This document shows, piece after piece, positions 41,399 through 54,541 of a DNA stretch of 64,000 nucleotides. Under the pieces are notes generated by a model. That model did not search any database and was not told the origin of the DNA. It worked only from the letters and a program-made list of their open reading frames with translations. Location: positions 537,663 through 601,662 of the forward strand of contig JAQTZB010000001.1 in assembly GCA_028688015.1 (NCBI GenBank), read 5' to 3'. Source of the stretch: Elusimicrobiales bacterium. GTDB lineage: Bacteria; Elusimicrobiota; Elusimicrobia; Elusimicrobiales; UBA9959. The first letter of the stretch is position 1. Each line of letters begins with the position of its first letter. The position numbers and the translations under genes were made by a program.

Positions 41399-41421
41399 GC
41401 GGCCCGGTCAGACCGGGCCGC
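41399..41421 (+). terminator. Hairpin between the converging yhaN-like and hydF genes
   Basis: A perfect 10-bp stem (41399-41408 with 41412-41421) with loop CAG follows the ATPase stop and overlaps the hydF end. On the plus strand a weak T-tract (TATCTTTT) follows. It may end both transcripts. Confidence 0.55.
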
Positions 41422-42679
41422 TATCTTTTGCTGGTCCGGCGGCGGCTTTGGCTGCGCGGTAAGCCGTCAGAGCCTCCGGAAAGGGGCTCAGCACCCGCTC
41501 GAGCACGCCTTTGCACTCGGAGATGGCCGTGCCGTAGTTGGTGATGGGGATGCCGGCCGCGGCGGCCTTGCCCATGCGGTTGAGGATCTCGGCGCGGCCC
41601 AGCATGCAGCCGCCGCACTGCACGGCCAGCTTGTAGCCGCCCAGGTCGGCGGGCAGGTCGTGTCCGGCGAAAGTGTCGATCCGCAACTCTCCCCCCGCCG
41701 TCTCGCGCAGCCAGCGCGGCAGTTTTACCCTGCCGATGTCGTCCTCTATGGCGTGGTGGGAGCAGGCCTCCAGCACGGCCAGTTTGTCGCCGGGGCGCAG
41801 GGCGCGTATGGCGGCGGCGCCGGCGGCGTAGGCGGGCAGATCCCCCTTCAGGCGGGCGAACAGGATGGAGAAGGTGGTGCAGGGCACGCCTTCCGGCGTG
41901 TGGCGCACCATGAAGTCCACCACCTGCGAGTCGCAGACCACCAGGGCCGGCGGCGCTTTGAGGGCGGCCAGGGCCGCGGGGTATTCGTGCTCGCGGCAGG
42001 TGAGGAAGAAGACTCCGTGGTCCAGCAGATCGCGCATGGCCTGCACCTGCGGCAGGATGATGCGCCCTTTGGGCGCTTCCTTGTCTATCGGGATTATGAA
42101 CACGACCGTCTGGCCGGGCGCGACCAGGTCGCCCAGTATGGCGCCGGGGGCGCCGACAGGCCGTGCCAGCTTAAGCAGTCGGTCTTTAACGGCTGAGACG
42201 GCGGCTTCGCGCAGGCCGGCGGTGACGGCGGAGCAGAGTATGGGCTCCAGCCCCCTGGCGGCCAGGACAGCCGCCAGCTCCGGGGAAGGGCCGGCGATGT
42301 CGGTCTTGTTGACCAAGACTATCAGCGGAATCTTCTTCTCCAAGGCGGCCGCGGCGATCTCGTCCTCGCAGGCGCCCCAGCCGGAGGGTTCCACCACCAG
42401 CAGCGCCACGTCGGCGCGGTCAAACACTTTCCTGGCGCGCTCCGTGCGCAGGGCGCCCAGGCGGCTGCTGTCGTCCAGGCCGGCGGTGTCGAGGAAGACT
42501 ACGGGGCCGACCGGGAGCAGCTCCATGCTCTTCTCCACCACGTCGGTGGTGGTGCCGGGCACCGGGGAGGTGATGGCGACGTCCTGGCCGGCCAGCATGT
42601 TGAGCACGCTGGACTTGCCGACATTGGTGCGGCCGAAGATGGCTATCTGCAGGCGCAGGGATTTTGGCGTAGTGTTCAT
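41408..42679 (-). CDS. hydF: [FeFe] hydrogenase maturation GTPase HydF
   Basis: The 423-residue protein has an N-terminal GTPase domain: P-loop G-R-T-N-V-G-K-S near residue 16, D-T-A-G near 62, and N-K-T-D. A dimerisation domain and a C-terminal Fe-S domain follow. The Fe-S motif begins E-A-C-S-H-H. The usual H-C-x2-C reads Q-C-G-G-C, so the histidine often found before the C-x2-C is a glutamine. HydF is the scaffold on which the 2Fe subcluster made by HydE and HydG is assembled and delivered to HydA. I chose the ATG at 42679, 20 bases after the hydE stop; the longer frame overlaps hydE. Confidence 0.92.
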   Translation of the reverse strand: MNTTPKSLRLQIAIFGRTNVGKSSVLNMLAGQDVAITSPVPGTTTDVVEKSMELLPVGPVVFLDTAGLDDSSRLGALRTERARKVFDRADVALLVVEPSGWGACEDEIAAAALEKKIPLIVLVNKTDIAGPSPELAAVLAARGLEPILCSAVTAGLREAAVSAVKDRLLKLARPVGAPGAILGDLVAPGQTVVFIIPIDKEAPKGRIILPQVQAMRDLLDHGVFFLTCREHEYPAALAALKAPPALVVCDSQVVDFMVRHTPEGVPCTTFSILFARLKGDLPAYAAGAAAIRALRPGDKLAVLEACSHHAIEDDIGRVKLPRWLRETAGGELRIDTFAGHDLPADLGGYKLAVQCGGCMLGRAEILNRMGKAAAAGIPITNYGTAISECKGVLERVLSPFPEALTAYRAAKAAAGPAKDSGPV

Positions 42680-42699
42680 AGTCTGGACCTCACGATCGG

Positions 42700-43692
42700 C
42701 TAGACCGTTTTCATAGAATGCCCGAAGCCTTCGGCGCGCTCGCGGCCGAGGGCGCCGAGCATGGCGTCGACGCAGCCGGCGCACTGCTCGGGGGCTTCGC
42801 CGGTGCAGATCTTGCCGGGATAGAGGCTGTAATCCACGCGGTGTTCCGTAGGGCTGATATTGGGCATCAGCACGTTGGCGCCGCAGCGCAGAGCTTTCTG
42901 GCGGCCCTGGGGGTCTATGCTGCCCATGGCAGTGGTGGCGGGGATATGGGCGTTTTTGGTCAGGATGCGGGTGAGGGCCACCATGCGCAGGGCGGCGTCG
43001 AGGGTTCCGCTAACGGCGCCGGCCAGGGGTGTGTCGGGGTTGGCGATGAAGGGGCCGATGCCCACCATATCCAGGTCCAGCCGCTTGAAGAGCAGCAGGT
43101 CGTCAGCCAGGCTCTCCAGGCTCTGGCCGGGCAGGCCGGCCATGACGCCGGACCCCACCTGGAAGCCGGCGTCCTTGAGCCAGGCGAGGCAGCGGAAGCG
43201 GTTGTCGTAGTCTGAGTCGGGCTTGAGCATGGTGAACAGCTTGCGGTCGGAGGTCTCGAAGCGCAGCAGAAAGCGGTCGGCCCCGGCGGCGCGCAGCATT
43301 CTGTAGTCTTCGGCAGAGTGTTCACCTACGGACAGGGTGATGGCGAGGCCGGTTTCTGTCTTTACCCGCTCTACGATGGCGGCCAGGGACCTGGCGGAGA
43401 GGTAGGGGTCCTCGCCGGACTGCATGACGACGGTCTTGTAGTTCAGTTGCACGGCCGTGCGGGCGCAGGCCAGTATTTCTTCGGGGGTGAGGCGGTAGCG
43501 GCGCACTTTGGGATTGCCGGCGCGTATGCCGCAGTAGTAGCAGCGGCGGCTGCAGTAGTTGGAGAACTCTACGAGCCCGCGCAGGTGCACCCCGTCGCCC
43601 ACGGTCTCGCGGCGCACTTTGTCCGCCAGGTCGAAATAGGGCGCCGGGTCAGTATCAGGGGAGAGGGCTTTAACCAGTTCTTCGCGTTGCAT
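42700..43692 (-). CDS. hydE: [FeFe] hydrogenase maturation radical SAM enzyme HydE
   Basis: The 330-residue radical SAM protein has its cluster cysteines at 47, 51 and 54 (C-S-R-R-C-Y-Y-C-G), followed by the HydE-type G-I-R-A-G-N. Other blocks include M-Q-S-G-E-D near 90 and M-P-N-I-S-P-T near 280. HydE acts on the HydG-derived iron complex to help form the dithiomethylamine bridge. It lies six bases after hydG and 20 bases before hydF. Late cysteines (C-A-G-C) near residue 305 may bind a second, non-essential cluster. Confidence 0.92.
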   Translation of the reverse strand: MQREELVKALSPDTDPAPYFDLADKVRRETVGDGVHLRGLVEFSNYCSRRCYYCGIRAGNPKVRRYRLTPEEILACARTAVQLNYKTVVMQSGEDPYLSARSLAAIVERVKTETGLAITLSVGEHSAEDYRMLRAAGADRFLLRFETSDRKLFTMLKPDSDYDNRFRCLAWLKDAGFQVGSGVMAGLPGQSLESLADDLLLFKRLDLDMVGIGPFIANPDTPLAGAVSGTLDAALRMVALTRILTKNAHIPATTAMGSIDPQGRQKALRCGANVLMPNISPTEHRVDYSLYPGKICTGEAPEQCAGCVDAMLGALGRERAEGFGHSMKTV

Positions 43693-43698
43693 AGGGCC

Positions 43699-45177
43699 TC
43701 AGAAGCACAAGTCGCGCTCCCCGCCTTCGATGCGGGCGTAGTAGGCCTCGAGCAGCTTCAGCGTCTCGGGCGGGAAGTGGGCGCCGCGCTCGCGGATCTC
43801 GTTGATCTCGCGGCGTATCAGTTTCTCCCCCTTCGCCCTGGTGGCGTCGGAGGCGAAGTCGTCGAGCCACTCGCGGAAGGTCAGCACCGCGTTGAGCTTG
43901 CAGAAACGGCTCTCATGGCCGCTCTTGAGCAGCTTCATGATATGGTCGCCGGTGCGGCCGCAGCGGTAGCCCGAGGTGCAGAAGGAGGTGATGTGCCCCA
44001 GGTCGGCGAGCTCGCCTATGACCTCGTCGAGGGAGCGGGTGTCGCCCAGCATGAACTGCTGGCGGTCGGCCTCCTGCGAGCCGTAGCGCTCGGAGTAGGC
44101 ACCGATGCCTATGCGGGTGCTGGCGTCGCGCTGGGTGCACATCCCGATGACCTCGCGGATAGTCTCCGGGCGCTCGCGGGCGGTAACTATCATGCCGGCG
44201 TAGGGCACCGACAGGCGCAGCACGGCCACCAGCTTTTTAAAGTCGGCGTCCGACACGTTCTTAAGGCTCTCCGCGGGCAGGCTGGTGCCGTCGGCGTTCT
44301 CGAGGCGCGGAAAGGAGATGGTGTGCGGGCCTATGCCGAAGCGGGCTTCAAGCTCGCGGGCGTGGGCCACGAGGCCCAGCACCTCGAACTTCCAGTCCGG
44401 GTTCAGGCCGAAGAGCGCCCCGAGGGCCACGTCGTCGATGCCGGCCGCGAAGGCCCGGTGCATGACGTAGAGGCGCCAGCGGTAGTCGGCCTTGGGTGTC
44501 TCGCCGGGGTGCAGCTTGGCGTACAGCTCCCGGTCATAGGTTTCCTGGAACACCTGGTAGGTGCCGATGCCGGCCGCTTTCAGGGTTTCCAGGTCCGGCA
44601 CGTTCATCGGGGCGGCGTTGACGTTCACGCGGCGGATCTGGCCGAAGCCGCGGCGGGTGGGCACCTTCACGGCATAGATGGTCTTCATGGCCTCGGCGAT
44701 ATATTGGGCGCCGGTGGCCGGGTGCTCGCCGGTGACGAAGATCAGGCGCTTATGGCCGATGCGGCCTGCCAGGGCCTCGGTCTCGGCCCGGATCTCTTCC
44801 ATAGAGAGTTTTCTGCGCACCGCTCCGGCGTTGCCGGTGCGGAAGCCGCAGTAGAGGCAGTTGTTTACGCAGAAGTTGGAGGCGTAGAGCGGGGCGAAGG
44901 TGACGACGCGGTTGTCGTACACCTTGCGCTTCACGTCGCGGGCCGCCTCGAAGATCTCTTCGAGCAGGGCCGGGTCCTCCACGGCCAGCAGGGCGGCGGT
45001 GTCTTCGGGCGGCAGGGCCTCGGAGACCCGCAGCGAGCGGGCGATGATCTCCCGCACGCGCTCCGCCGCGGGGGCCGGCGCGGCCAGGGCGGCCTTCAGC
45101 GTGGCGTCGTCTATGAAGTCCTTGCCGTCTTCGAGGTAATCCGAGTAAGTGTCAGCGTTGACTGCAACGGTCTGCAT
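43699..45177 (-). CDS. hydG: [FeFe] hydrogenase maturation radical SAM enzyme HydG
   Basis: The 492-residue protein is the tyrosine lyase that makes the CO and CN ligands. The SAM cluster cysteines are 103, 107 and 110 (F-C-V-N-N-C-L-Y-C-G-F). The C-terminal auxiliary-cluster region reads F-C-T-S-G-Y-R-C-G-R-T-G, then F-C-K-L-N-A some 20 residues later. Many HydG proteins have C-T-A-C-Y-R there, so the C-x2-C is here a C-x5-C. The rest of the family pattern is intact. It is the first of three clustered maturation genes, 18 bases after the REC-kinase gene. Confidence 0.92.
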   Translation of the reverse strand: MQTVAVNADTYSDYLEDGKDFIDDATLKAALAAPAPAAERVREIIARSLRVSEALPPEDTAALLAVEDPALLEEIFEAARDVKRKVYDNRVVTFAPLYASNFCVNNCLYCGFRTGNAGAVRRKLSMEEIRAETEALAGRIGHKRLIFVTGEHPATGAQYIAEAMKTIYAVKVPTRRGFGQIRRVNVNAAPMNVPDLETLKAAGIGTYQVFQETYDRELYAKLHPGETPKADYRWRLYVMHRAFAAGIDDVALGALFGLNPDWKFEVLGLVAHARELEARFGIGPHTISFPRLENADGTSLPAESLKNVSDADFKKLVAVLRLSVPYAGMIVTARERPETIREVIGMCTQRDASTRIGIGAYSERYGSQEADRQQFMLGDTRSLDEVIGELADLGHITSFCTSGYRCGRTGDHIMKLLKSGHESRFCKLNAVLTFREWLDDFASDATRAKGEKLIRREINEIRERGAHFPPETLKLLEAYYARIEGGERDLCF

Positions 45178-45195: not shown

Positions 45196-46365
45196 TCAGG
45201 CCTTCAGCGCTTCGATGGGCGCCGGCAGCGGCGCGTCCTTCAGAGCCAGCTCGAAGGAAGTCCCCTCCCCGTACTTCGACTTCACTTTTATCTCCCCTCC
45301 GTAAAGCTTGACCACCTTTTTGAGGATGGACAGGCCGAGGCCGCTGCCGTCGATGTTGCGGGTGTGCTCGTTCTTCATGCGGACGAACTCCCCGAACAGC
45401 TTGGCCAGCTCTTCCTCGGTCATGCCGATGCCGGTATCGGAGCAGCGTATGGTGACCGCGCTTCCGGCGCGCCCCAGCTCCAGCGTGGCGCGGCCGCCCG
45501 GCTTGTTGTATTTGACGGCGTTGGTGAGCAGGTTGGTCAGGATCATGTCCACCTCGCCGGGGTCTGCGGTCATGCTCAACTGGGCCGGGGCCTTGAGTTC
45601 TACTGTCACCTGCCTGCTCCCGGCGAGGGCGGCCACGCCCTCCGCCGCCAGGCCGGCGGCCTTTACCAGGTCCACCGGCTCGATGGCGCGCTTCTTCTTG
45701 CCGGATTCCAGCCGGGTGAGGTCCAGCAGGTCCATCACCAGCTTGCGCATGCCGCCGATGCGCGTGACCGAGCGCTCTATCATGGAATCGTAGGCCTGCA
45801 GCTCGGGGCCTTTCAGGCGCTCCTTCATCAGGTGCATGTAGCCCTCCACGGCGGCGAGCGGCGACTTGAGTTCATGCGCGAGCACCGAGATGAATTCGAA
45901 GCGCACCTGGCGCTTTTCCTCTTCCAGCCGGCGGGCTTTGCGGTGCAGGTAGATGCTGCGGGCGGCCTTGGAGATGGTGGCGCGCAATTCCTCGGGGGTG
46001 AACGGTTTGGCCAGGAAGTCGAAGGCGCCGCGCTTGGTAGCGGTGACGGCTACCTCGAGCGAGGCGAAAGCGGTGATCATGATGGTCAGGAAGTCGCCCG
46101 AAGAGGAGGCGGCCAGCACGTCTATACCGGTCATGTCCGGCAGCTTATAGTCCAGCAGCAGTATATCCGGGGTCTTGGCCTTCAGCTGGGCCAGGGCCTC
46201 TTCGCCGGTGGCTGCGGAGCGCACGGCGAAGGCTACGGTTTCGCTGAATTCGGGCAGCGGCACGGAGAAGCCCTCAAGAGAGCGCTCGGCGCCGGCGCGC
46301 ATGCCGGCTTCGTCGTCTACGATCAGCACGTCCAGCTCGTGGACGGGCAGCGGGTCATCAGTCAT
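45196..46365 (-). CDS. Hybrid protein: receiver domain plus histidine kinase
   Basis: The 389-residue soluble protein starts with a receiver domain (I-V-D-D-E near 15, phospho-acceptor aspartate in L-L-L-D-Y-K-L-P near residue 72, switch lysine in A-K-P-F). A short coiled coil follows, then a HisKA domain (L-A-H-E-L-K-S-P-L near 164) and an HATPase (N-L-L-T-N-A-V-K-Y-N, D-T-G-I-G, G-S-G-L-G-L). No membrane helix is present. Such REC-HK proteins take phosphate from one kinase and signal on. It overlaps the preceding response-regulator gene by 8 bp and lies inside the hydrogenase operon. I infer it belongs to the sensor-hydrogenase pathway. Confidence 0.85.
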   Translation of the reverse strand: MTDDPLPVHELDVLIVDDEAGMRAGAERSLEGFSVPLPEFSETVAFAVRSAATGEEALAQLKAKTPDILLLDYKLPDMTGIDVLAASSSGDFLTIMITAFASLEVAVTATKRGAFDFLAKPFTPEELRATISKAARSIYLHRKARRLEEEKRQVRFEFISVLAHELKSPLAAVEGYMHLMKERLKGPELQAYDSMIERSVTRIGGMRKLVMDLLDLTRLESGKKKRAIEPVDLVKAAGLAAEGVAALAGSRQVTVELKAPAQLSMTADPGEVDMILTNLLTNAVKYNKPGGRATLELGRAGSAVTIRCSDTGIGMTEEELAKLFGEFVRMKNEHTRNIDGSGLGLSILKKVVKLYGGEIKVKSKYGEGTSFELALKDAPLPAPIEALKA

Positions 46366-46768
46366 GGCCGCCCCCCGCGCCCAGCAGGCGCTTGAGCTCG
46401 GCCTTGAGCTGCTCGAAGCGCAGTTCCTTGTGGATGATGGCGTCGGCCTTGATCCAGGCCTTGGGGTCGTGGGCCTTGTCGAAGTAGAAGCCGGTTTCCT
46501 TGGTGACGGAGGTGACGATGACGACGGGTATCTTCGGGTCCAGCTTCTTGATCTTGTGGCTGAGCACGAAGCCGGAGTCCGGGTTTTCCATCATCAGGTC
46601 CAGCACGGCTGCGCCGAACGCGCCGGGCCTGATGAGGGGCTCGGCCTCTTTCTGAGTAGAGGCGGCCACCACCTCGTAACTTTCGCTTTCGAGGTAGACC
46701 TTCATCTGCTCCATCATGTCGGGGTCGTCTTCCACCACGAGGATCCTGATCTTGCTGTTGTCGCTCAT
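46358..46768 (-). CDS. Stand-alone response regulator (receiver only)
   Basis: The 136-residue protein is a single receiver domain, with the acidic pair E-D-D-P near residue 13, the phospho-acceptor in V-L-D-L-M near 56, and a threonine/valine switch in V-I-V-T-S. The expected late K-P pair is not obvious; the C-terminal part is charged and helical instead (K-A-D-A-I-I-H-K-E). There is no DNA-binding domain, so it must act by protein contact. It sits between the hydrogenase-type kinase and the REC-kinase, overlapping the latter by 8 bp, and could be the relay between them. Confidence 0.78.
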   Translation of the reverse strand: MSDNSKIRILVVEDDPDMMEQMKVYLESESYEVVAASTQKEAEPLIRPGAFGAAVLDLMMENPDSGFVLSHKIKKLDPKIPVVIVTSVTKETGFYFDKAHDPKAWIKADAIIHKELRFEQLKAELKRLLGAGGGHD

Positions 46769-46781
46769 AGTATTCTCCTGA

Positions 46782-48815
46782 TCACTTCTTGGCCGGTTCT
46801 GCTTTCATTTTTATTGCGCCGGCGTCCTTGGCGACGCGCGGCAGCTTTACCGTGAAAGTGGTGCCAGTGGGGCCGGCCGCGGCGTCGGAACTGCTCTCGA
46901 CGGTGATACTGCCGCGGTGGACCTTGATGATGCCGTAAGAGACGGCCAGGCCGAGGCCGGTGCCCTTGCCTATCTGCTTGGTGGTGAAAAAGGGCTCGAA
47001 GACCTTCTTGAAGTTCTCCGGCTTGATGCCGCAGCCGGTGTCGGTGACGCTGAAGCACACGTTATTGCCCTCGGCGAAGGTGCGGATGGTCAGCTCTCCG
47101 GCCCCGCCCATGGCCTCCAGCGCGTTGGTGACCAGGTTAGTGAGCACCTGCACCAACTGGTCCGGGTCCATCTCGGCCTGCAGATCCTCGCCGGAGCGGT
47201 TGATGGTGATGCGCAGGGCCGGGGGCAGCGGCGCGGTTCTGAAATAGTTATCTACGAGCTTGACCAGGCTGGTCTGGCGGAAGAAGGGCTTGTTCTTGCG
47301 GGCGAAGTTCAGCAGCCCGCCCACTATCTTCTTGCAGCGGTCGGCCTGCTCGGTGATCATCTTGGCGTCGGCGAAAGTGCGGGAGCCCTTCTCGCACTGT
47401 TCGGCCAGCAGGTGCGCGTAGAGCAGCACCACGCCGAGCGGGTTATTGAGCTCGTGCGCCACGCCCGCGGCCAGCTGGCCCATGCTGGCCAGCTTCTCGC
47501 TCTGCATCAGCGCCTGCTTGGTCTTGGCCAGCTGGTTGTAGGACACCGTCAGCTCGTCGGCGGTGGTCTTGAGGCGGTCGATGGTGTAAGGCAGGCACAT
47601 CTCGCTCTCGGCGATACCGCGGATGATGGCTACGGCGTGCTCCACGCAGGTTGAGTAGCCGCAGGCCCCGCAGTTCAGCTCGTCTTCGGGATTGCGTTTG
47701 CCCAGTTTCTCGAGGACGGCCTTAAGGGCGTCGGCGCCGGGCAGGCCCATGCGGCGGTCCTCGGCGGCGAAGGAGGCGGAGTAATCCAGAGAGCGGAAGC
47801 GGCGCACGCTCTCTTCCCAGTCGCTGAACTTGATGCTGAAATAGCTCTTGCGGGCGTAGCGGCGCAGGGCGGCCTCGCGGGCGTGCTTGGAGGTCTTCAC
47901 GCTGATGCCGGGGCCCATGATGCAGCCGTTGCAGCAGAGCAGGTCGATGAAGTCCGAGTCGATGTCCCCGTGCTCGAGGTTCTTGAGCACTTCGGGAAAG
48001 CTCTCCAGGCCTTCGGCCGACAGGAAGCGCCCGCTGAGCAGGTCCTCTTCCAGCTCGGCGGAGTTCAGCAGGCCACCGCCCATCGGGTAAAGCACGCCCT
48101 TGGCCGGGTACGGCGGGTCGAACTGGGCGTCGAGGGCGCTGTTGCGGTCCACGCCGGCGGCCTCGAAGAGGGCACGCAGCTCCGTGAAGGTGATGGATTC
48201 GTCCAGGTCGCCGACGCTGCGGGCCGTCTCTCCCTTCTTTGCCACGCAGGGGCCGATGAAGACCACTTTGACTTCCGGCCCGTAGAGCTCGTGGATGACG
48301 CGGGCCTCCGCCACCATGGGCGAAACTATCGGGGCCAGGCTGGGCACCAGGGCCGGGTGGTATTTCTCCACAAAAGAGACCACGGCGGGGCAGGCGGTGC
48401 TGATGAATTTCTTGCCGGGATTCTCGTTGAGCAGCTTGCGGTACTGCAGGGAGACCATGTCGGCTCCGAAAGCCACTTCGCAGACGTACTTGAAGCCGAT
48501 GGCCCTGAGCATCCCGGCGAAGCGCAGCGGATCTACGCTGCCGAATTCCACGGGGAAGCTGGGGGCCAGCGCCGCGGCTACGGGCGCGCCGGACTTGAGC
48601 AGGGTCGCGACGGCCTCGACGGACTGCTTGGTCTCCTTGGCGCCGCGGCTGCACATCAGCACGCAGTTGGCGCAGCCGATGCAGCGTTCCTTGATGACCT
48701 CGGCCTGTCCTCCGGAGATGCGGATGGCCTTGGCGGGGCACCCGCGGACGCAGGTATAGCACGCCTTGCAGCGTTCTTTGATGGTCCTGACCAGCTGTCC
48801 GTCTTCGTAAGTCAT
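46782..48815 (-). CDS. Sensory [FeFe] hydrogenase fused to a histidine kinase
   Basis: The 677-residue protein has four parts. Two [4Fe-4S] sites come first (Cys16, 19, 22, 26 and Cys45, 48, 51, 55). A hydrogenase-like domain follows with the three H-cluster loops recognisable: T-A-C-P at 140-143, G-P-C-V-A-K-K at 188-194, and C-C-N-G-C at 294-298. A further Fe-S motif holds Cys382, 385, 390 and 407 (C-G-A-C-G-Y-S-T-C). A HisKA (His454 in A-H-E-L-N-N-P) and HATPase end the protein. Loops differ from the catalytic HydA next door, as in sensory hydrogenases. I infer it reports H2 to the adjacent regulators. The ATG at 48815 is preferred; an ATG 14 codons upstream is possible. Confidence 0.85.
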
Positions 48816-48845
48816 ATCGTTGCCTGCACTCGGAGTCTTACCGCC

Positions 48846-48864
48846 GCCCGGGCGCACCCCGGGC
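48846..48864 (-). other. Hairpin between hydA and the sensor-hydrogenase gene
   Basis: A perfect 7-bp G+C stem (48846-48852 with 48858-48864) lies in the 66-bp gap, the longest gap inside the hydrogenase operon. No T-run follows on the minus strand. It may set the relative amount of enzyme and regulator mRNA. Confidence 0.5.
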
Positions 48865-48881
48865 TAATGTTATGAATGTAT

Positions 48882-50606
48882 TCAGACGATATCCGCCGCC
48901 TTGCGTCTGGCATACTTGGTATGGAGGAGGTGGTGGCTCTTCTCCCCCAGCGGCTTGCCGAGGAAGTCTTTGTAGAGCTGCTGCACCGCCTTGTTGCTGT
49001 GGGAGGTGCGGAGTTTCTCGGCGGCGTCTATGGCGTAGAGGGCGCGCATGCGCTCGACGACCGCCGCCTTGTTCCTGGCCAGGGGCTGCCCGCCGCCGTT
49101 GATGCAGCCGCCGGGGCAGGTCATGACCTCTATGAAGTGCAGGTCCTTGCGGCCGTTCTTGACCTCCTCGAGCAGCTTGCGGGCGTTGCCCAGGCCGCTG
49201 ACGGCGGCCACGCCGGCCTCGAGGGCGCCGATCCTGAGCTTCGCCTCCTTCAGGCCGTTCTGCCCGCGGACGGCGTCCACCTTGAGGTTGCCCAGTTCCT
49301 TGCCGGTGAGCAGGAAGTGGGCGGTCCGCAGGGCGGCTTCCAAGACGCCGCCGGAGGCGCCGAACAGCTTGCCGGCGGTGCTGCGGTCGCCGAATGGCAG
49401 GTCGGGCTCTTCGGGCTTCAGGGTTCTGAGGTCGATGCCGTGGATGCGCAGCAACTGGGCGAGTTCGCGGGTGGTGAGCACGGCGTCGATGTCGGGGAAG
49501 CCGTCGCGGCCCATCTCGGGCCGGGTGACCTCGAACTTCTTGGCGGTGCAGGGCATGACCGAGACGCTGTAGATCTTGCCCGGGGGCAGGCCCTGCTTCT
49601 TGGCGTAGTAGGTCTTGATCATGGCGCCGAGCATCTGCTGCGGGCTCTTGCAGGTGGAGAGGTGGGGCAGCATTTCGGGATAGAAGGTCTCCACGAACTT
49701 GATCCACCCGGGCGAGCAAGAGGTGAACATGGGCAGCGCGCCGCCGGTCTTGATGCGGTGGGCGAGCTCCGAGGCCTCCTCCATGATGGTCAGGTCGGCG
49801 GCGAAGGAGGTGTCGAAGACCGCCTTGAAGCCCATCTTTCGGAAGGCGGCCGTCATGACGCCGTTGACGTCGGTGCCGGCCGGCAGGCCGAACTCCTCGG
49901 CGAGCGATACCGAGATGGACGGAGCGTGCTGCACCACGACGTAGTTTTCCTTGCCGGCCAAGGCCTCCATTACGGGCTCTATGTCGCTCTTCTCTACCAG
50001 GGCGCCGGTGGGACAGACGTTGATGCACTGGCCGCAGTTGACGCAGGAAGAGACGTTGAGACTGCTGTCGAAGGCGCAACCGATGAAGGCGTCGGAGCCG
50101 CGCTTGACGAAGTCTATGCACGCCACGCTCTGCGTCTCCTCGCAGACACGCACGCACTTGCCGCAGAGGATGCACTTGTCCGGATCGCGGGAGATGGAGG
50201 GGCTGGAGATATCGAGGGGCTTCTTTTTGCGGGCCACCGGGAAGCGGCGGCTGGTGACGCCGTAGTCGCGGCTGAGACGGTTCAGGTCGCAGGTGGGCTG
50301 CTTGGCGCAATAGAGGCAGTCGTCGGGGTGGCTGCCCAGCAGCAGCTCCACCACGGTCTTGCGGGCGTTGATGACGCGCGGGCTGTTGCTGAGCACCTTC
50401 ATGCCCTCGGCGGCCGGGAAGGAGCAGCTGGGGATCAGGTTGTTCTGGCCTTCCACCTCCACCACGCAGATGCGGCAGGCGCCCGACGGCAGCATGCCCT
50501 CCATGTGGCAGAGCGTGGGCACGTGCACGCCCTCGCGGCGCAGCACGGTGAGCAGGGTTTCCCCCGCCTGGGCCTCCACGGCTTTTCCGTTGATGGTCAG
50601 TTTCAT
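48882..50606 (-). CDS. hydA: NADH/ferredoxin-linked [FeFe] hydrogenase catalytic subunit HydA
   Basis: The 574-residue protein begins with a [2Fe-2S] domain (Cys33, 44, 47, 61). A His-liganded [4Fe-4S] site follows (His93, Cys97, 100, 106), then two more [4Fe-4S] clusters (Cys145, 148, 151, 155 and Cys188, 191, 194, 198). The H-cluster loops are T-S-C-S-P-G-W near 295, M-P-C-T-A-K-K at 351-357 and C-P-G-G-C-I-N-G-G-G near 500. It lacks the extra C-terminal [2Fe-2S] domain of the Thermotoga protein. With HydB and HydC it should couple NADH and ferredoxin oxidation to H2 formation. I chose the ATG at 50606; the longer frame only overlaps hydB. Confidence 0.93.
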   Translation of the reverse strand: MKLTINGKAVEAQAGETLLTVLRREGVHVPTLCHMEGMLPSGACRICVVEVEGQNNLIPSCSFPAAEGMKVLSNSPRVINARKTVVELLLGSHPDDCLYCAKQPTCDLNRLSRDYGVTSRRFPVARKKKPLDISSPSISRDPDKCILCGKCVRVCEETQSVACIDFVKRGSDAFIGCAFDSSLNVSSCVNCGQCINVCPTGALVEKSDIEPVMEALAGKENYVVVQHAPSISVSLAEEFGLPAGTDVNGVMTAAFRKMGFKAVFDTSFAADLTIMEEASELAHRIKTGGALPMFTSCSPGWIKFVETFYPEMLPHLSTCKSPQQMLGAMIKTYYAKKQGLPPGKIYSVSVMPCTAKKFEVTRPEMGRDGFPDIDAVLTTRELAQLLRIHGIDLRTLKPEEPDLPFGDRSTAGKLFGASGGVLEAALRTAHFLLTGKELGNLKVDAVRGQNGLKEAKLRIGALEAGVAAVSGLGNARKLLEEVKNGRKDLHFIEVMTCPGGCINGGGQPLARNKAAVVERMRALYAIDAAEKLRTSHSNKAVQQLYKDFLGKPLGEKSHHLLHTKYARRKAADIV

Positions 50607-50620
50607 GATGTGTTTCCTCG

Positions 50621-52579
50621 TTAGGCGGCGGCGACGGCCTTGAACTTGCAGACGGTCCTGCACGAACCGCAGGAGATGCACTTTTCGGCGATGATATAAT
50701 GGGGCGCCTTGGGCTTGCCCACTATGGCTTGCGTCGGGCAGCCCTTCAGGCAGAGGGTACAGCCCTTGCACCTGCCGGCGTCGATGGAGAATTCCAGCAT
50801 CTCGGTACAGGCCCCGGCCGGGCACTTGCGCTCGAAGATATGGGCCTCGTACTCGTCGCGGAACCAGCGCAGCGTGCTGAGCACCGGGTTCGGGGCGCTC
50901 TGGCCCAGGCCGCACAGGCTGGTCTCGCGGATGACCTGGGAGAGGTTCTCGAGGTGCATGATGCCCGAGAAGCGGGCCAGGGCGTCGGCGTCCTTCTCGC
51001 CGCGGCGGTGGCGGGTGATGGCCTTGAGGATCTCGAGCATGCGCAGCGTGCCCTCGCGGCACGGGATGCACTTGCCGCAGCTTTCGCGCTTGATGAAGTC
51101 CATGAAGTACTTGGCCACGTCCACCATGCAGGTGGTCTCGTCCATGACGACGAGGCCGCCGGAGCCCATCATGGCGCCGACGGTCTTGAGGGATTCGTAA
51201 TCCACCTGGATGGTCATGTGGCTCATCGGGATGCAGCCGCCCGACGGGCCTCCTATCTGCACGGCCTTGAAGCCCAGGCCTCCCTCTATGCCGCCGCCGA
51301 TGTCGAAGACTATCTCCTTGAGCGTGGTGCCCATCGGGATCTCTACGAGGCCGGTGCGGTTGACCTTGCCGGAGAGCGCGAACACTTTGGTGCCCTTGCT
51401 GCCCTTGGTCCCGACGGCCGCGAAGGCCGCCGGGCCCTGGGAGATGATCTCTGGGACGTTGGCGAAAGTCTCCACATTATTGATGACGGTGGGCTTGCCG
51501 AACAGGCCCTTCACCGCCGGGTACGGAGGGCGGGGCTTGGGCATGCCGCGGCGCCCCTCGATGCTGTTCATCAGGGCGGTCTCCTCGCCGCAGACGAAGG
51601 CGCCGGCGCCCATCTTGATGATGACGTCGAGGTCGAAGCCGCTGCCGTAGATGTTCTCGCCCAGCAGGCCGTAGGCCTTGGCGTCGGCTATGGCCTTTTT
51701 AAGGTTCTTGATGGCCAGCGGGTACTCGGCGCGGATATAGACATAGGCCTTGGAGGCGTGGATGGCGTAGGCGCCGATGGCGATGCCCTCCAGCACGCGG
51801 TGCGGGTCGCCCTCAATGACGGAGCGGTCCATGAAGGCGCCGGGGTCGCCCTCGTCGGCATTGCAGACGATGTATTTCTGGTCGGCGTCGCTGGCGAGTG
51901 CTATCTTCCACTTCTTGCCCGTCGGAAAGCCGCCGCCGCCTCGGCCGCGCAGGCCGGAGGCCTCCACGGCGTCGCAGGCCTGGGCCGGGGTCATGGTGTG
52001 TATCACTTTAAGAAAGGCGCCGTAGCCGCCGCGTGCAACGTGCTCCTGCAGCGAAAGCGGGTCGACGATGCCGACGTGCTTGAGAACGAAGCGCAGCTGC
52101 TTGGAGAAAAAGGGATGCTCGGAGAGGAGCGGCACTTTGGGCCACTTCTTGCCCCCGTCCCCGAACTGGCCCAGGAGGTGGTCCTTCAGCGGGGCCTTGT
52201 CCTTGAAGACGGAGTCGAGCAGGGAGGGCACCGCGTCGCCGGTGGCGCGCTCGAAGCCGACCCGCGCGTGGCCGGGCAGCTGCACGTCCAGCAGGGGCTC
52301 GGAGGCGCAGAGCCCGATGCAGCCCACTTCCAGAACGTCGGCCTCTAACTTGTTGTCCTTGATATACTTCTTTGCCGCCTCCAGGGTCTTGGCGGCGCCG
52401 GCGGCCAGGCCGCAGGTGCCAGCGCCCACGTAGATGACGGCGCGGGAGAGGCCTTCGCGGCGCAGGGTCGCGGCTTTTGCGGCGTAGTCCTCGGCCCCGA
52501 AGACCCTGGTCAGGAAATCCCTGCGCGCGGAGGCGGTGAGCCCGGAGAGGTTGCGGTCCAGCATGTCGTTATTTGCCAT
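50621..52579 (-). CDS. hydB: Hydrogenase diaphorase subunit HydB (NuoF-like)
   Basis: The 652-residue protein has an N-terminal thioredoxin-like [2Fe-2S] domain. A NuoF-type flavin and NADH site follows (G-L-R-G-R-G-G-G-G-F-P-T-G and N-A-D-E-G-D-P-G-A-F near 230-275, then C-G-E-E-T-A-L). An N-terminal-type [4Fe-4S] site sits in S-C-G-K-C-I-P-C-R-E-G-T. The C-terminal ferredoxin domain has two clusters (C-K-G-C-T-L-C-L-K-G-C-P and C-I-S-C-G-S-C-R-T-V-C). It takes electrons from NADH and ferredoxin and passes them to HydA. It overlaps hydC by 11 bp and lies 14 bp before hydA. Confidence 0.93.
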   Translation of the reverse strand: MANNDMLDRNLSGLTASARRDFLTRVFGAEDYAAKAATLRREGLSRAVIYVGAGTCGLAAGAAKTLEAAKKYIKDNKLEADVLEVGCIGLCASEPLLDVQLPGHARVGFERATGDAVPSLLDSVFKDKAPLKDHLLGQFGDGGKKWPKVPLLSEHPFFSKQLRFVLKHVGIVDPLSLQEHVARGGYGAFLKVIHTMTPAQACDAVEASGLRGRGGGGFPTGKKWKIALASDADQKYIVCNADEGDPGAFMDRSVIEGDPHRVLEGIAIGAYAIHASKAYVYIRAEYPLAIKNLKKAIADAKAYGLLGENIYGSGFDLDVIIKMGAGAFVCGEETALMNSIEGRRGMPKPRPPYPAVKGLFGKPTVINNVETFANVPEIISQGPAAFAAVGTKGSKGTKVFALSGKVNRTGLVEIPMGTTLKEIVFDIGGGIEGGLGFKAVQIGGPSGGCIPMSHMTIQVDYESLKTVGAMMGSGGLVVMDETTCMVDVAKYFMDFIKRESCGKCIPCREGTLRMLEILKAITRHRRGEKDADALARFSGIMHLENLSQVIRETSLCGLGQSAPNPVLSTLRWFRDEYEAHIFERKCPAGACTEMLEFSIDAGRCKGCTLCLKGCPTQAIVGKPKAPHYIIAEKCISCGSCRTVCKFKAVAAA

Positions 52580-53051
52580 TGGAGTTCTCCGCCTTCTTTA
52601 AATCTTCTACCAGCTTGCGCAGCTTGTCGGCGTTGACCTTGGCGTGGAACTCGCCGTTGATGCTGATGACCGGGGCCAGGCCGCAGGCGCCTATGCAGGA
52701 GACCACTTCTATACTGAACAGCCCGTCGCGGGTGGTGTCGCCTGCCTTTATGCCGAGGACTTCCTCGCACATCTTGAGCACGGCGGCGGAGCCCTTTACG
52801 TGGCAGGCGGTGCCGCGGCAGATCATGACGTGGTACTTGCCCACCGGCTTGAACCGGAACTGGTTGTAGAAAGTTGCCACGCCGTACACCTTGCTGGCGG
52901 GGATGTTGAGGTGCCTGGCCACTTTGAGAGCGGCCGGCTTGGAGATGAAGCCTTCGGCCGCCTGCACGTCCTGCAGGATGGGGATCAGCTTGTCGCGCTT
53001 GGCGAAGCTGTAGTTCTCCAGGACCTTGTCGACTTTGCTGGGGGCGCTCAT
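52569..53051 (-). CDS. hydC: Hydrogenase [2Fe-2S] subunit HydC (NuoE-like)
   Basis: The 160-residue protein is of the thioredoxin-like NuoE family. The [2Fe-2S] ligands are Cys78, Cys83, Cys119 and Cys123 (C-R-G-T-A-C and C-I-G-A-C-G). The N-terminal helical part (P-I-L-Q-D-V-Q-A-A-E-G-F-I) is typical. It completes the HydABC core. It starts four bases after the rex stop and its own end overlaps hydB, so hydC and hydB are tightly coupled. Confidence 0.92.
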   Translation of the reverse strand: MSAPSKVDKVLENYSFAKRDKLIPILQDVQAAEGFISKPAALKVARHLNIPASKVYGVATFYNQFRFKPVGKYHVMICRGTACHVKGSAAVLKMCEEVLGIKAGDTTRDGLFSIEVVSCIGACGLAPVISINGEFHAKVNADKLRKLVEDLKKAENSNGK

Positions 53052-53055
53052 GATG

Positions 53056-53688
53056 TCACTCCTTCGACTTGTTCTTGCGGGCGAAATACGCGACCTTCTC
53101 TATGGACAGGGTTATGTCGAGCTGCTCCAGGAAGATGCCGGGCGGCACCTTGAGCTGCACCGGGGCGAAGTTAACGATGCCCCGCACGCCGGCGCGCACC
53201 AGCGCGTCGGCCGCCTCCTGGGCGGTGGAGGCGGGCACCGTGATGATGCCCACCGCCGCCTTCTCCCGCGCCACGGTCTTTTCCAGCTGGCCTATATGGT
53301 GAACCTGGCAGCCGGAGTAGACCCGGTTGACCTTCTCCGGGTCCTGGTCGAACGCCGCCACGATGCTGAGGTTGGGCCTGCGCTTGAGGAAGTAGGAAAG
53401 TATGGCCTTGCCGAGGTTGCCCACCCCCACCAGCACCATCTTGGTCAGCGACGAGGATTCCAGGTGCGCGTAGAGCTCGGCCATGAACTCCTTGATGGGG
53501 TAGCCCCGCTGGGGGGTGCCCTTCAGCCTGAAGTTCATGAGGTCGCGCCGGACCTGCTCCGGCGAAACCCCCACCGCGGCCGCCAGTTCGTGAGAGAAGA
53601 CGTACTCGGAACCGGCTTCAAGCCTGTTGTGCAGGAACTGGCAGTAGCGGAAGAACCTCTCTACGGTGCGCTGGGGGATCCTTGTCAT
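53056..53688 (-). CDS. rex: Redox-sensing transcriptional repressor Rex
   Basis: The 210-residue protein has the Rex layout. The N-terminal winged helix includes A-A-A-V-G-V-S-P-E-Q-V-R-R-D-L near residue 45. A Rossmann NAD(H) domain carries V-G-V-G-N-L-G-K-A-I at about 87-96. A C-terminal swapped helix completes it. Rex releases DNA when NADH rises. The gene lies second in the hydrogenase operon, between a response regulator and hydC. The 8-4-8 palindrome just downstream of the operon promoter is the natural candidate for its operator, so the operon would be autoregulated. Confidence 0.93.
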   Translation of the reverse strand: MTRIPQRTVERFFRYCQFLHNRLEAGSEYVFSHELAAAVGVSPEQVRRDLMNFRLKGTPQRGYPIKEFMAELYAHLESSSLTKMVLVGVGNLGKAILSYFLKRRPNLSIVAAFDQDPEKVNRVYSGCQVHHIGQLEKTVAREKAAVGIITVPASTAQEAADALVRAGVRGIVNFAPVQLKVPPGIFLEQLDITLSIEKVAYFARKNKSKE

Positions 53689-53696
53689 AGTGCTCC

Positions 53697-54113
53697 TTAC
53701 CTGGTGCGGCCTTCAACGTTGACCTGGTCTTTCTTCAGGGCCAGCAGCTCTTTGACCTTGGCCAGGAACTCCTTGGGTTTTATGGGCTTTTCCATAAATG
53801 CGTCCACGGGCAGGAACTCGCCGTCTTTTTCCCCGAACTTCTGGGGCGAGGTCTCGTTGACCGAGGTGAGCATCATGATCGGGACGTACTTGAGGGCCTC
53901 GGCGCGGCGGAGCTTCTGCGCGGTGGCGAAGCCTTCTGTCGAGTCGTCCATCATGACATCGAGGACTATCAGCGCGGGCTTCTCCTTGGAGGCCTTTTCG
54001 AACCCCTCTTTGCCGTTGGTCGCCGTCACAACGGTGTGGCCGACCCCCTGCAGCACCACTTCGCAGGTGTCCAGGATGTCCTTGTCGTCGTCTATGCAGA
54101 GTATCTTTGCCAT
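53697..54113 (-). CDS. Response regulator at the head of the hydrogenase operon
   Basis: The 138-residue protein is a single receiver domain. The acidic pocket is D-D-D near residue 8, the phospho-acceptor is in L-D-V-M-M near 51, the switch is M-L-T-S, and K-P follows near 105. No output domain is present. It is the first gene of the operon, with a strong GGAGGA ribosome-binding site seven bases before the ATG and a leader of about 85 bases. It may receive phosphate from the sensor hydrogenase encoded six genes downstream. Its position ahead of rex hints at regulation of the operon itself. Confidence 0.85.
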   Translation of the reverse strand: MAKILCIDDDKDILDTCEVVLQGVGHTVVTATNGKEGFEKASKEKPALIVLDVMMDDSTEGFATAQKLRRAEALKYVPIMMLTSVNETSPQKFGEKDGEFLPVDAFMEKPIKPKEFLAKVKELLALKKDQVNVEGRTR

Positions 54114-54144
54114 ACTTTCCTCCGGTTGCCTATCGTTCAGAATG

Positions 54145-54167
54145 TAACGATGGTAGCCGCATCGTTA
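54145..54167. promoter_or_regulatory. Inverted repeat TAACGATG-N7-CATCGTTA
   Basis: Perfect 8-bp arms (54145-54152 and 54160-54167) lie within the leader of the hydrogenase operon, just downstream of the 8-4-8 palindrome. Its core resembles that palindrome but has wider spacing. It may be a second, weaker operator. Confidence 0.55.
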
Positions 54168-54173
54168 TTTAAT

Positions 54174-54193
54174 AACGTTAATCTATTAACGTT
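54174..54193. promoter_or_regulatory. Candidate Rex operator, perfect 8-4-8 palindrome
   Basis: The sequence is AACGTTAA-TCTA-TTAACGTT. Its GTTAA-N4-TTAAC core matches the spacing of known Rex sites, whose classical form is TTGTGAA-N4-TTCACAA. It begins about six bases after the predicted start site, where a bound repressor would block initiation or early elongation. Confidence 0.65.
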
Positions 54194-54205
54194 GACTACA
54201 GAAAT

Positions 54206-54234
54206 AGTATACGTCATCGTTTTAGTTTTGTCAA
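54206..54234 (-). promoter_or_regulatory. Sigma-70-type promoter of the hydrogenase operon
   Basis: On the minus strand a perfect TTGACA (54229-54234) is followed after exactly 17 bases by TATACT (54206-54211). This is the best promoter match in the window. It points at the response regulator-rex-hyd operon, with a predicted start near 54199. Confidence 0.8.
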
Positions 54235-54318
54235 TACCTATTTAAATCAACTCTGTTCACGTCGGGATAGCAACGTTACCACCGCGTTACGCTTTAAAGG
54301 CTACGCGTAAAATACCAG

Positions 54319-54364
54319 CGTTACATACTAGTACGGCCGCGTTATCGCGTAACAGTATGTAACG
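54319..54364. repeat. 11-bp inverted repeat CGTTACATACT/AGTATGTAACG
   Basis: Perfect 11-bp arms (54319-54329 and 54354-54364) are separated by 24 bases that themselves contain GCGTTATCGCGTAAC. The site lies about 90-130 bases upstream of the -35 box, a place where activators or looping repressors bind. Confidence 0.6.
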
Positions 54365-54409: not shown

Positions 54410-54508
54410 CCCTGGCAGGCCCCCTGTGAGCGATTTTAGCGGGCCTCTTCGGCCGCGCACGCTTCTGAGCGAACAGGGGGCCTGCCAGGGGCCTTTGGTG
54501 AGGCCCCT
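54410..54508. repeat. Inverted-repeat element C with adjoining hairpin
   Basis: Perfect 18-bp arms (54410-54427 and 54473-54490) enclose 45 bases. The right arm overlaps a second perfect 8-bp hairpin (54487-54494 with 54501-54508). It lies 34 bases after the dioxygenase stop. On the minus strand no T-run follows, so a simple terminator is unlikely. Its build is like elements A and B at 11892-12182. Confidence 0.65.
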
Positions 54509-54541
54509 GCTTGATTTTTGTTGCTGAGAAGGATGGGCTGC

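Follow-up and report, generated by a model that had tools for sequence, protein, structure and literature searches.

A conserved CGTTA/TAACG array in front of a Rex-encoding [FeFe] hydrogenase operon of Elusimicrobiales: a candidate Rex operator

The control region of the hydrogenase operon in the 64-kb window (the whole stretch of DNA that was analysed) is, with a probability that we put at roughly 0.8, an operator array for Rex, a sensor of the NADH/NAD+ ratio. Since Rex, the proposed binder of the array, is encoded by the second gene of the operon, the operon would be autoregulated, and it would be repressed when NADH is low. Control of hydrogenases by Rex is already known; what is new here is the CGTTA code of the sites, the combination of several dyads, two of them overlapping, in one array, and the phasing of the upstream half.

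The hydrogenase operon and its control region

The operon runs on the minus strand from 54113 to 41408. Its first gene (53697..54113) encodes a receiver-only, CheY-like response regulator (Response_reg, 59.3 bits) and its second (53056..53688) the redox-sensing transcriptional repressor Rex (NF003995; PDB Rex structures, best E 1e-34). They are followed by a NuoE/HydC-like [2Fe-2S] subunit (52569..53051; TIGR01958, 145.6 against a cut-off of 142.4), a NuoF/HydB-like FMN and NADH subunit (50621..52579; Pfam Complex1_51K, 161.6 against 31.2, the NuoF model TIGR01959 scoring 480, below its cut-off of 559) and the catalytic subunit of a group A6-type [FeFe] hydrogenase (48882..50603, start approximate; NF040763, 802.7 bits, cut-off 765). 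With a catalytic subunit above cut-off and NuoE- and NuoF-like partners, the enzyme was classified as an NADH-dependent [FeFe] hydrogenase of group A6 (HydABC). Next come a HydS-like histidine kinase with a hydrogenase domain (46782..48857; Fe_hyd_lg_C, FeS, HisKA, HATPase_c) and, from the domain scan, a second receiver-only response regulator (46358..46768) and a receiver-histidine kinase protein (45196..46365). The maturation genes close the operon: HydG (43699..45177) and the GTPase HydF (41408..42784) by profile match, and between them a radical SAM protein (42700..43692; Radical_SAM match only) which from its position and size is presumably HydE. All of these genes are on the minus strand. 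Among the proteins of the operon, the scans found a DNA-binding domain above cut-off only in Rex. The hydrogenase-domain kinase is co-encoded with two receiver-only regulators and a receiver-kinase, in an operon without a DNA-binding response regulator. The close relatives are Elusimicrobia MAGs, several of them from groundwater. In four loci (L084, L089, L090 and L092) about 1.3 kb of extra DNA separates the NuoF and HydA match starts and the HydA matches are lower (62%); these probably represent a variant operon with an extra gene between NuoF and HydA.

The operon is preceded by a sigma-70-type promoter on the minus strand, TTGACA-17-TATACT (54206..54234), with 11 of 12 consensus bases. The position tables cover 18 of 21 loci, L086, L087 and L088 not being anchored by the promoter and start patterns. 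Because the anchoring pattern itself requires TTGACA, conservation of the promoter was taken from an alignment of 16 of these 18 loci, the window's own included (L015 and L020 had no match to the start pattern); TTGACA is present in 16/16 and TATACT in 14/16. Transcription would start near 54199, about +35 when counted, as are all half-site positions below, on the operon strand from the first base of the −35 element. On the far side of the array, inverted repeats at 54410..54509 are likely to be the terminator or terminators between it and the upstream gene.

Downstream of the promoter the half-sites are kept at fixed places. In the 18 anchored loci, again including the window's own, CGTTA occurs at +43 in all 18, TAACG at +54 in 16, CGTTA at +57 in 14 and TAACG at +67 in 16; a further CGTTA stands at +85 in 17 loci and at +84 in the remaining one. 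They build three dyads, all of which would lie in the leader since the start is placed near +35. Dyad 1, ACGTTAATAGATTAACGT (also written CGTTAATAGATTAACG; 54175..54192), lies just downstream of the presumed start. It is a CGTTA-N6-TAACG dyad with Rex-box spacing and the only exact CGTTAN6TAACG in the window's genome; at its place in loci L075-L094, GTTAN6TAAC is found in 20/20 and the full CGTTAN6TAACG in 18/20. Dyad 2, CGTTATTAAATAACG (54163..54177), has a gap of 5 between its half-sites at +57 and +67, is offset from dyad 1 by 14 bp and shares two bases with it. Dyad 3, CGTTACATTCTGAACG (54134..54149), lies near the ribosome-binding site; its CGTTA is kept and its second arm is degenerate, an exact TAACG at +96 being present in 2/18 loci, both of them relatives. 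The mean information per column is 1.35 bits from 0 to +100 (promoter included) and 0.29 bits upstream, and the half-sites stay fixed relative to the −35 element while the upstream flanks drift. A fourth, degenerate dyad over the −35 element (TTGACA...AACGA) was considered and dropped: only three pairs, the outer ones, match, and the −35 element is under a constraint of its own. The promoter spacer carries AACGATG (54215-54221, minus strand), exact in 14/18 loci and above the spacer expectation, perhaps as a further half-site.

The upstream half of the array (54274..54364) is made up of TAACG, on the operon strand, at 54274, 54285, 54319 and 54340, and of CGTTA at 54360-54364, and it includes an imperfect dyad, TGTTACGCGATAACG (54340-54354). 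Its conservation is partial. Among the 18 anchored loci TAACG is found at −55 (within two bases) in 14, at −44 (within two) in 7, at −88/−89 in 7 and at −109/−110 in 6; CGTTA recurs near −130 in part of the loci, and five loci (L089-L093) have none or one upstream half-site. Distances between upstream half-sites of the same orientation peak at 11, 21, 34, 45 and 55-56 (49 distances, which are not independent). The window's own upstream half has 5 half-sites against a shuffle mean of 1.65, a modest excess that 6/300 shuffles equal. Cooperative binding or looping, which an earlier note on this DNA had proposed, is only suggested by the tandem dyads together with the phasing of the upstream half-sites at about 11 bp.

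The upstream array may consist of extra Rex sites, serving affinity, activation or looping, or it may be the site of a second factor. In the latter case two regulators would share the region: Rex would bind the downstream dyads, and the upstream direct repeats would be occupied by a different protein acting as activator, such as a response regulator of the OmpR/PhoB type under the control of the hydrogenase-type kinase. OmpR/PhoB regulators have 11-bp direct repeats; the upstream TAACG repeats are about 11 bp or multiples of it apart and 41/60 half-sites share one orientation, a direct-repeat layout that is atypical for Rex. L090, L092 and others keep the downstream dyads with the upstream array missing or nearly so, and the operon does encode a histidine kinase with a hydrogenase domain. 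However, two unrelated proteins would then have to read one and the same pentamer, and the two small response regulators that the operon encodes consist of a receiver only. In addition, upstream Rex sites have a precedent, because for Caldicellulosiruptor bescii the passages of PMC8579813 concerned propose that one operator located before the transcription start is an activator site for Rex. A second regulator of this kind is conceivable, though we regard it as rather unlikely.

Another possibility is that the inverted repeats act in the RNA, as 5' leader hairpins that control expression of the operon. Two stem-loops can indeed be drawn in the leader, but its fold is no better than that of shuffled sequences (z −0.78; 42/200 as good), and half of the array sits upstream of the promoter. 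Furthermore, pairs outside the pentamers often break, the few that are compensated being next to the pentamers, while the pentamers themselves are almost invariant in sequence. The leader had no match in Rfam up to E 1. On the fold, the Rfam search and the scarcity of compensation, RNA control was rejected as very improbable.

The earlier note had described, in front of a 12.7-kb operon, roughly a dozen CGTTA/TAACG pentamers and at least four inverted repeats around one strong promoter, at a density without equal in the window. The length of the operon and the promoter amid the repeats agree with the coordinates given above; the pentamers amount to ten exact copies within 220 bp (54145-54364), out of 51 in the whole window, and three pairs of inverted-repeat arms were located (54316-54335/54348-54367, 54174-54182/54185-54193 and 54145-54152/54160-54167), with further weaker ones. 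The density was measured in sliding segments of 234 bp over 424 kb of the 3.34-Mb genome (the window and, in addition, 18 sampled stretches of 20 kb, of which 13 come from the window's own contig and 5 from one other). The control region holds 10 pentamers and the runner-up, the rest of the window included, 4, with a mean of 0.19. In this sample an equal density in other AT-rich regions, which the note had named as counter-evidence, was not found, since the 140 overlapping segments with less than 50% GC average 0.41 and reach 3 at most. None of 2000 dinucleotide shuffles of the control region reached 10 (mean 2.9, largest 9), and CGTTA is its top pentamer (10 found, 0.19 expected). In whole-genome searches, all three CGTTA..TAACG..TAACG triples and three of the five TAACG x3 hits fell in the control region. 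The cluster is also common to those relatives that have the operon. A compositional accident of AT-rich intergenic DNA, to which the 40% GC of the region in a GC-rich genome might point, can be dismissed on the shuffles and the low-GC segments, and is already refuted by the fixed pentamer positions in the relatives.

Rex and the proposed variant Rex box

The protein of the second gene has both domains of Rex, the winged helix (Put_DNA-bind_N, 51.8 bits, cut-off 27) and the Rossmann domain (CoA_binding, 76.8, cut-off 22.3). Three NCBIfam models score above cut-off (NF003995, 196/126; NF003996, 185/138; NF003994, 176/130), six other Rex submodels below theirs. In the NAD-binding motif GxGNLG the residues G88, G90, N91, L92 and G93 are invariant in 18 aligned Rex sequences. 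By domains, models and motif the protein is assigned to Rex.

A tree was made of the Rex proteins of 80 of 176 confirmed loci; the loci had been picked out with two peptide patterns, so the tree does not survey all Rex. The window's own Rex, which is not in the tree, is 97% identical to that of L075. A branch with 100/100 support separates the Rex of the 20 loci L075-L094, together with 21 from other lineages, a Caldithrix MAG (L103) among them, from 39 other Rex. In all 20 loci L075-L094 NuoE follows rex. The link between this Rex group and a Rex-type box extends across phyla. Among the 21 hydrogenase-Rex loci from other lineages, GTKAN6TMAC lies within 150 bp of rex in 14, which have 24 such dyads where the remaining sequence of these loci would predict 0.045. 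In L095 and L096 the dyad is farther away, at 348 and 506 bp before rex, and in L096 it precedes a CheY-like gene, so that 16/21 bear the box; the other 5/21 had no GTKAN6TMAC box. The 39 other Rex loci include 5 with GTKAN6TMAC (0.16 expected). Tandem boxes are exactly 17 bp apart in 7 loci and 16 bp in one more; dyads 1 and 2 here are 14 bp apart. Two loci with a Rex of the hydrogenase group, L097 and L100, have rex followed by a CheY-like gene, near-canonical Rex boxes (13/14 positions) in front of rex and no hydrogenase match in the stretch compared.

The Rex box has the form TTGTTAANNNNTTAACAA, and no characterised box is known to us with a gap other than 6, from which a gap of 5 differs. 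Written as GTTAA-N4-TTAAC, dyad 1 (54175-54192, an 18-bp dyad) has the half-site spacing of the Rex box GTGAA-N4-TTCAC; dyad 2 is one base short of it. Against the published consensus TTGTGAANNNNTTCACAA (as given in the parts of PMC5317091 and PMC6391272 concerned), the dyad matches 8 of the 14 specified positions, and 10/14 when TTGTTAAN4TTAACAA is taken. The canonical outer bases TTG...CAA are not present. Because AC/GT stands here in place of TT/AA, we call the dyads variant and not canonical Rex boxes. Within the same Rex group the arms read TCGTTA...TAACGA in L095, TCGTGA...TAACGA in L105 and canonical TTGTGA...TCACAA in L113, and the letters of the box grade from TTGTGAAATGATTCACAA (L113) through TCGTGAGCTTCGTAACGA (L105) and TCGTTAGTTTATTAACGA (L095) to the letters of dyad 1 here. 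CGTTA is most readily understood as a Rex half-site in shifted form.

The wing of the protein may be connected with this shift. In every one of the 22 loci L075-L096 the motif GTPQ[RK]GY occurs together with one or more CGTTA arms; it is absent from L097-L115 save L099, which carries it without a detected dyad; since this amounts to one evolutionary change, the association is only a lead. The Rex structures of Thermotoga maritima and Bacillus subtilis, as described in the passages of PMC6125430 concerned, have the same winged helix and Rossmann domain and can be aligned over nearly the full length. Their wing reads GKRGVGY or GKKGYGY in place of GTPQ[RK]GY.

Rex, hydrogenases and the wider set of sites

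The genus set consisted of 32 genomes, the window's own included, of which 17 have this Rex (Rex+) and 15 do not (Rex−). None of the 15 Rex− genomes showed an orthologue of the hydrogenase subunit; its best matches had E values of 4e-39 to 3e-5 and covered the N-terminal part only in 14 genomes, and the last gave none. Since the genomes compared are MAGs of different completeness (63-100%), these absences are soft.

The Rex+ genomes together contain 41 copies of CGTTAN5TAACG, where the reversed pattern, used as control, gives 11; the Rex− genomes contain 4, where the control gives 15. The window's genome by itself has 3 with gap 5 (control 2) and 1 exact CGTTAN6TAACG (control 1), and relaxed Rex-type boxes number 13 against 8, an enrichment that is not clear. 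As none of these single-genome counts clearly exceeds its control, a wider regulon rests on the gap-5 dyads summed over genomes. Fifteen of the 41 belong to the rex promoter; the other 26 comprise 8 in front of a [NiFe] hydrogenase operon, 4 in front of aconitase and 14 at neither. Other gap-5 groups are at a DUF4912 gene and at an inosine/guanosine kinase beside a beta-helix gene. A regulon with a single target, which the unique gap-6 dyad had suggested, was dropped after the gap-5 search. There is good support for a regulator that uses many sites to act on the hydrogenase operon, with Rex as the likely candidate; the sites are not confined to this operon, given the CGTTA-N5-TAACG dyads before the [NiFe] operon and, more weakly supported, before aconitase.

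The [NiFe] operon is of the sulfhydrogenase type with the gene order beta, gamma, delta, alpha; its large subunit scores 119 bits with NiFeSe_Hases (cut-off 25.8) and does not reach the cut-offs of the sulfhydrogenase equivalogs. In the window's genome the dyad precedes the beta subunit gene (G000:C12:83944-83958). L258 (G020, partial beta gene), L270 (G001, aconitase cut by the contig end) and, for aconitase, the weaker homologues L286-L288 were left out of the comparisons. The upstream [NiFe] dyad is found in 8/17 Rex+ and 0/11 Rex− genomes compared; the Fisher p of 0.0097 overcounts because a single clade of 10 genomes accounts for all of these dyads. Another, weaker dyad, CGTTA-N5..8-AACG joined to the GGAGG of the beta gene, is found in 13/17 Rex+ and 1/11 Rex− genomes, or in 15/17 and 3/11 if TGTTA is allowed. 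The Rex− genomes are scattered over the [NiFe] gene tree (the best tree has 5 changes, of which well-supported branches force 2), although relatedness still inflates the test of the weaker dyad. Two of the 11 Rex− [NiFe] genes compared are diverged (62% identity). The gap-5 sites of aconitase, in 4/14 Rex+ and 1/12 Rex− genomes, give its place in the regulon weaker support than that of the [NiFe] operon.

Several other repeats were noted. In many genomes, Rex+ and Rex− alike, the [NiFe] beta promoters (L230-L253) have retained repeats resembling TATTAATTCTTCTAATC and TATTAG...CTAATA, which suggests that the [NiFe] operon has another regulator. CGTTAN5TAACG stands near a G-rich run and a AAATTTGCTA-like stretch in L199, L205, L213, L216 and L220 (Rex+) and in L222 (Rex−); the gene adjoining the dyad of L199 encodes DUF4912, and the intergenic regions of the other five are similar. 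The sole other CGTTAAN{2,6}TTAACG hit in the window's genome is CGTTAACGTTAACG (L001 1501-1514; G000:C50:229858-229871), whose neighbours do not match the proteins of the operon. CGTTACATTTGTAACG in the Rex− genome G002 (L194) was set aside, as no relative of the operon's proteins is nearby.

Known systems and the proposed switch

The nearest parallel is Caldithrix abyssi, in which, according to the passages of PMC5317091 concerned, rex likewise stands directly before the genes of a bifurcating-type [FeFe] hydrogenase. Its rex-hydABC genes (Cabys_3675-3679) have a predicted Rex box 38 bp upstream of rex and are predicted to be repressed at low NADH/NAD+. There, a single near-canonical box, cTGTGAATCAATTCACAt, is described, unlike the locus studied here with its CGTTA half-sites, three dyads, upstream array and receiver gene before rex. 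In C. bescii, in the parts of PMC6391272 and PMC8579813 concerned, Rex is reported to control the [FeFe] and [NiFe] hydrogenases, HydG and its own gene, with gel shifts on hydrogenase genes in PMC6391272. Repression is ascribed there to sites over or downstream of promoters, whereas one upstream site may serve activation; the operators are the canonical TTGTGAAN4TTCACAA, and those passages report no dense array. A part in the control of such hydrogenases has been proposed for Rex and also for the HydS hydrogenase (passages of PMC10084766). Among the literature matches listed, titles and beginnings of abstracts contained no report of Rex in Elusimicrobia.

By analogy, the downstream dyads would be repressor sites that are released by NADH. 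In the proposed mechanism, Rex dimers would sit on the CGTTA-N5/6-TAACG dyads, a variant Rex box, at about +7 to +66 from the transcription start. When NADH is low, bound Rex would keep the genes for the hydrogenase, its maturation and the sensors from being transcribed, by stopping initiation or, the dyads being in the leader, early elongation. When NADH accumulates, Rex would let go, the hydrogenase would be made and reductant would be disposed of as H2. The phased upstream half-sites would probably add affinity or range by allowing additional Rex, or a partner, to bind along one face of the helix. A more elaborate version is speculative, and we think it unlikely: the code of Rex would have changed from TTGTGA to CGTTA along with the changed wing GTPQ[RK]GY, and the overlapping downstream dyads with the helix-phased upstream half-sites would form a looped or filament-like nucleoprotein switch. 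This switch would couple the sensing of NADH to that of H2 by the hydrogenase kinase and would have both hydrogenases of the cell under its control.

The array offers a testable redox switch for hydrogen metabolism in a little-cultured phylum, and it raises the question why so many sites serve one operon. In the natural series TTGTGA, TCGTTA and ACGTTA, repressor and operator appear to have drifted together, and such a series would be suited to working out how Rex reads DNA.
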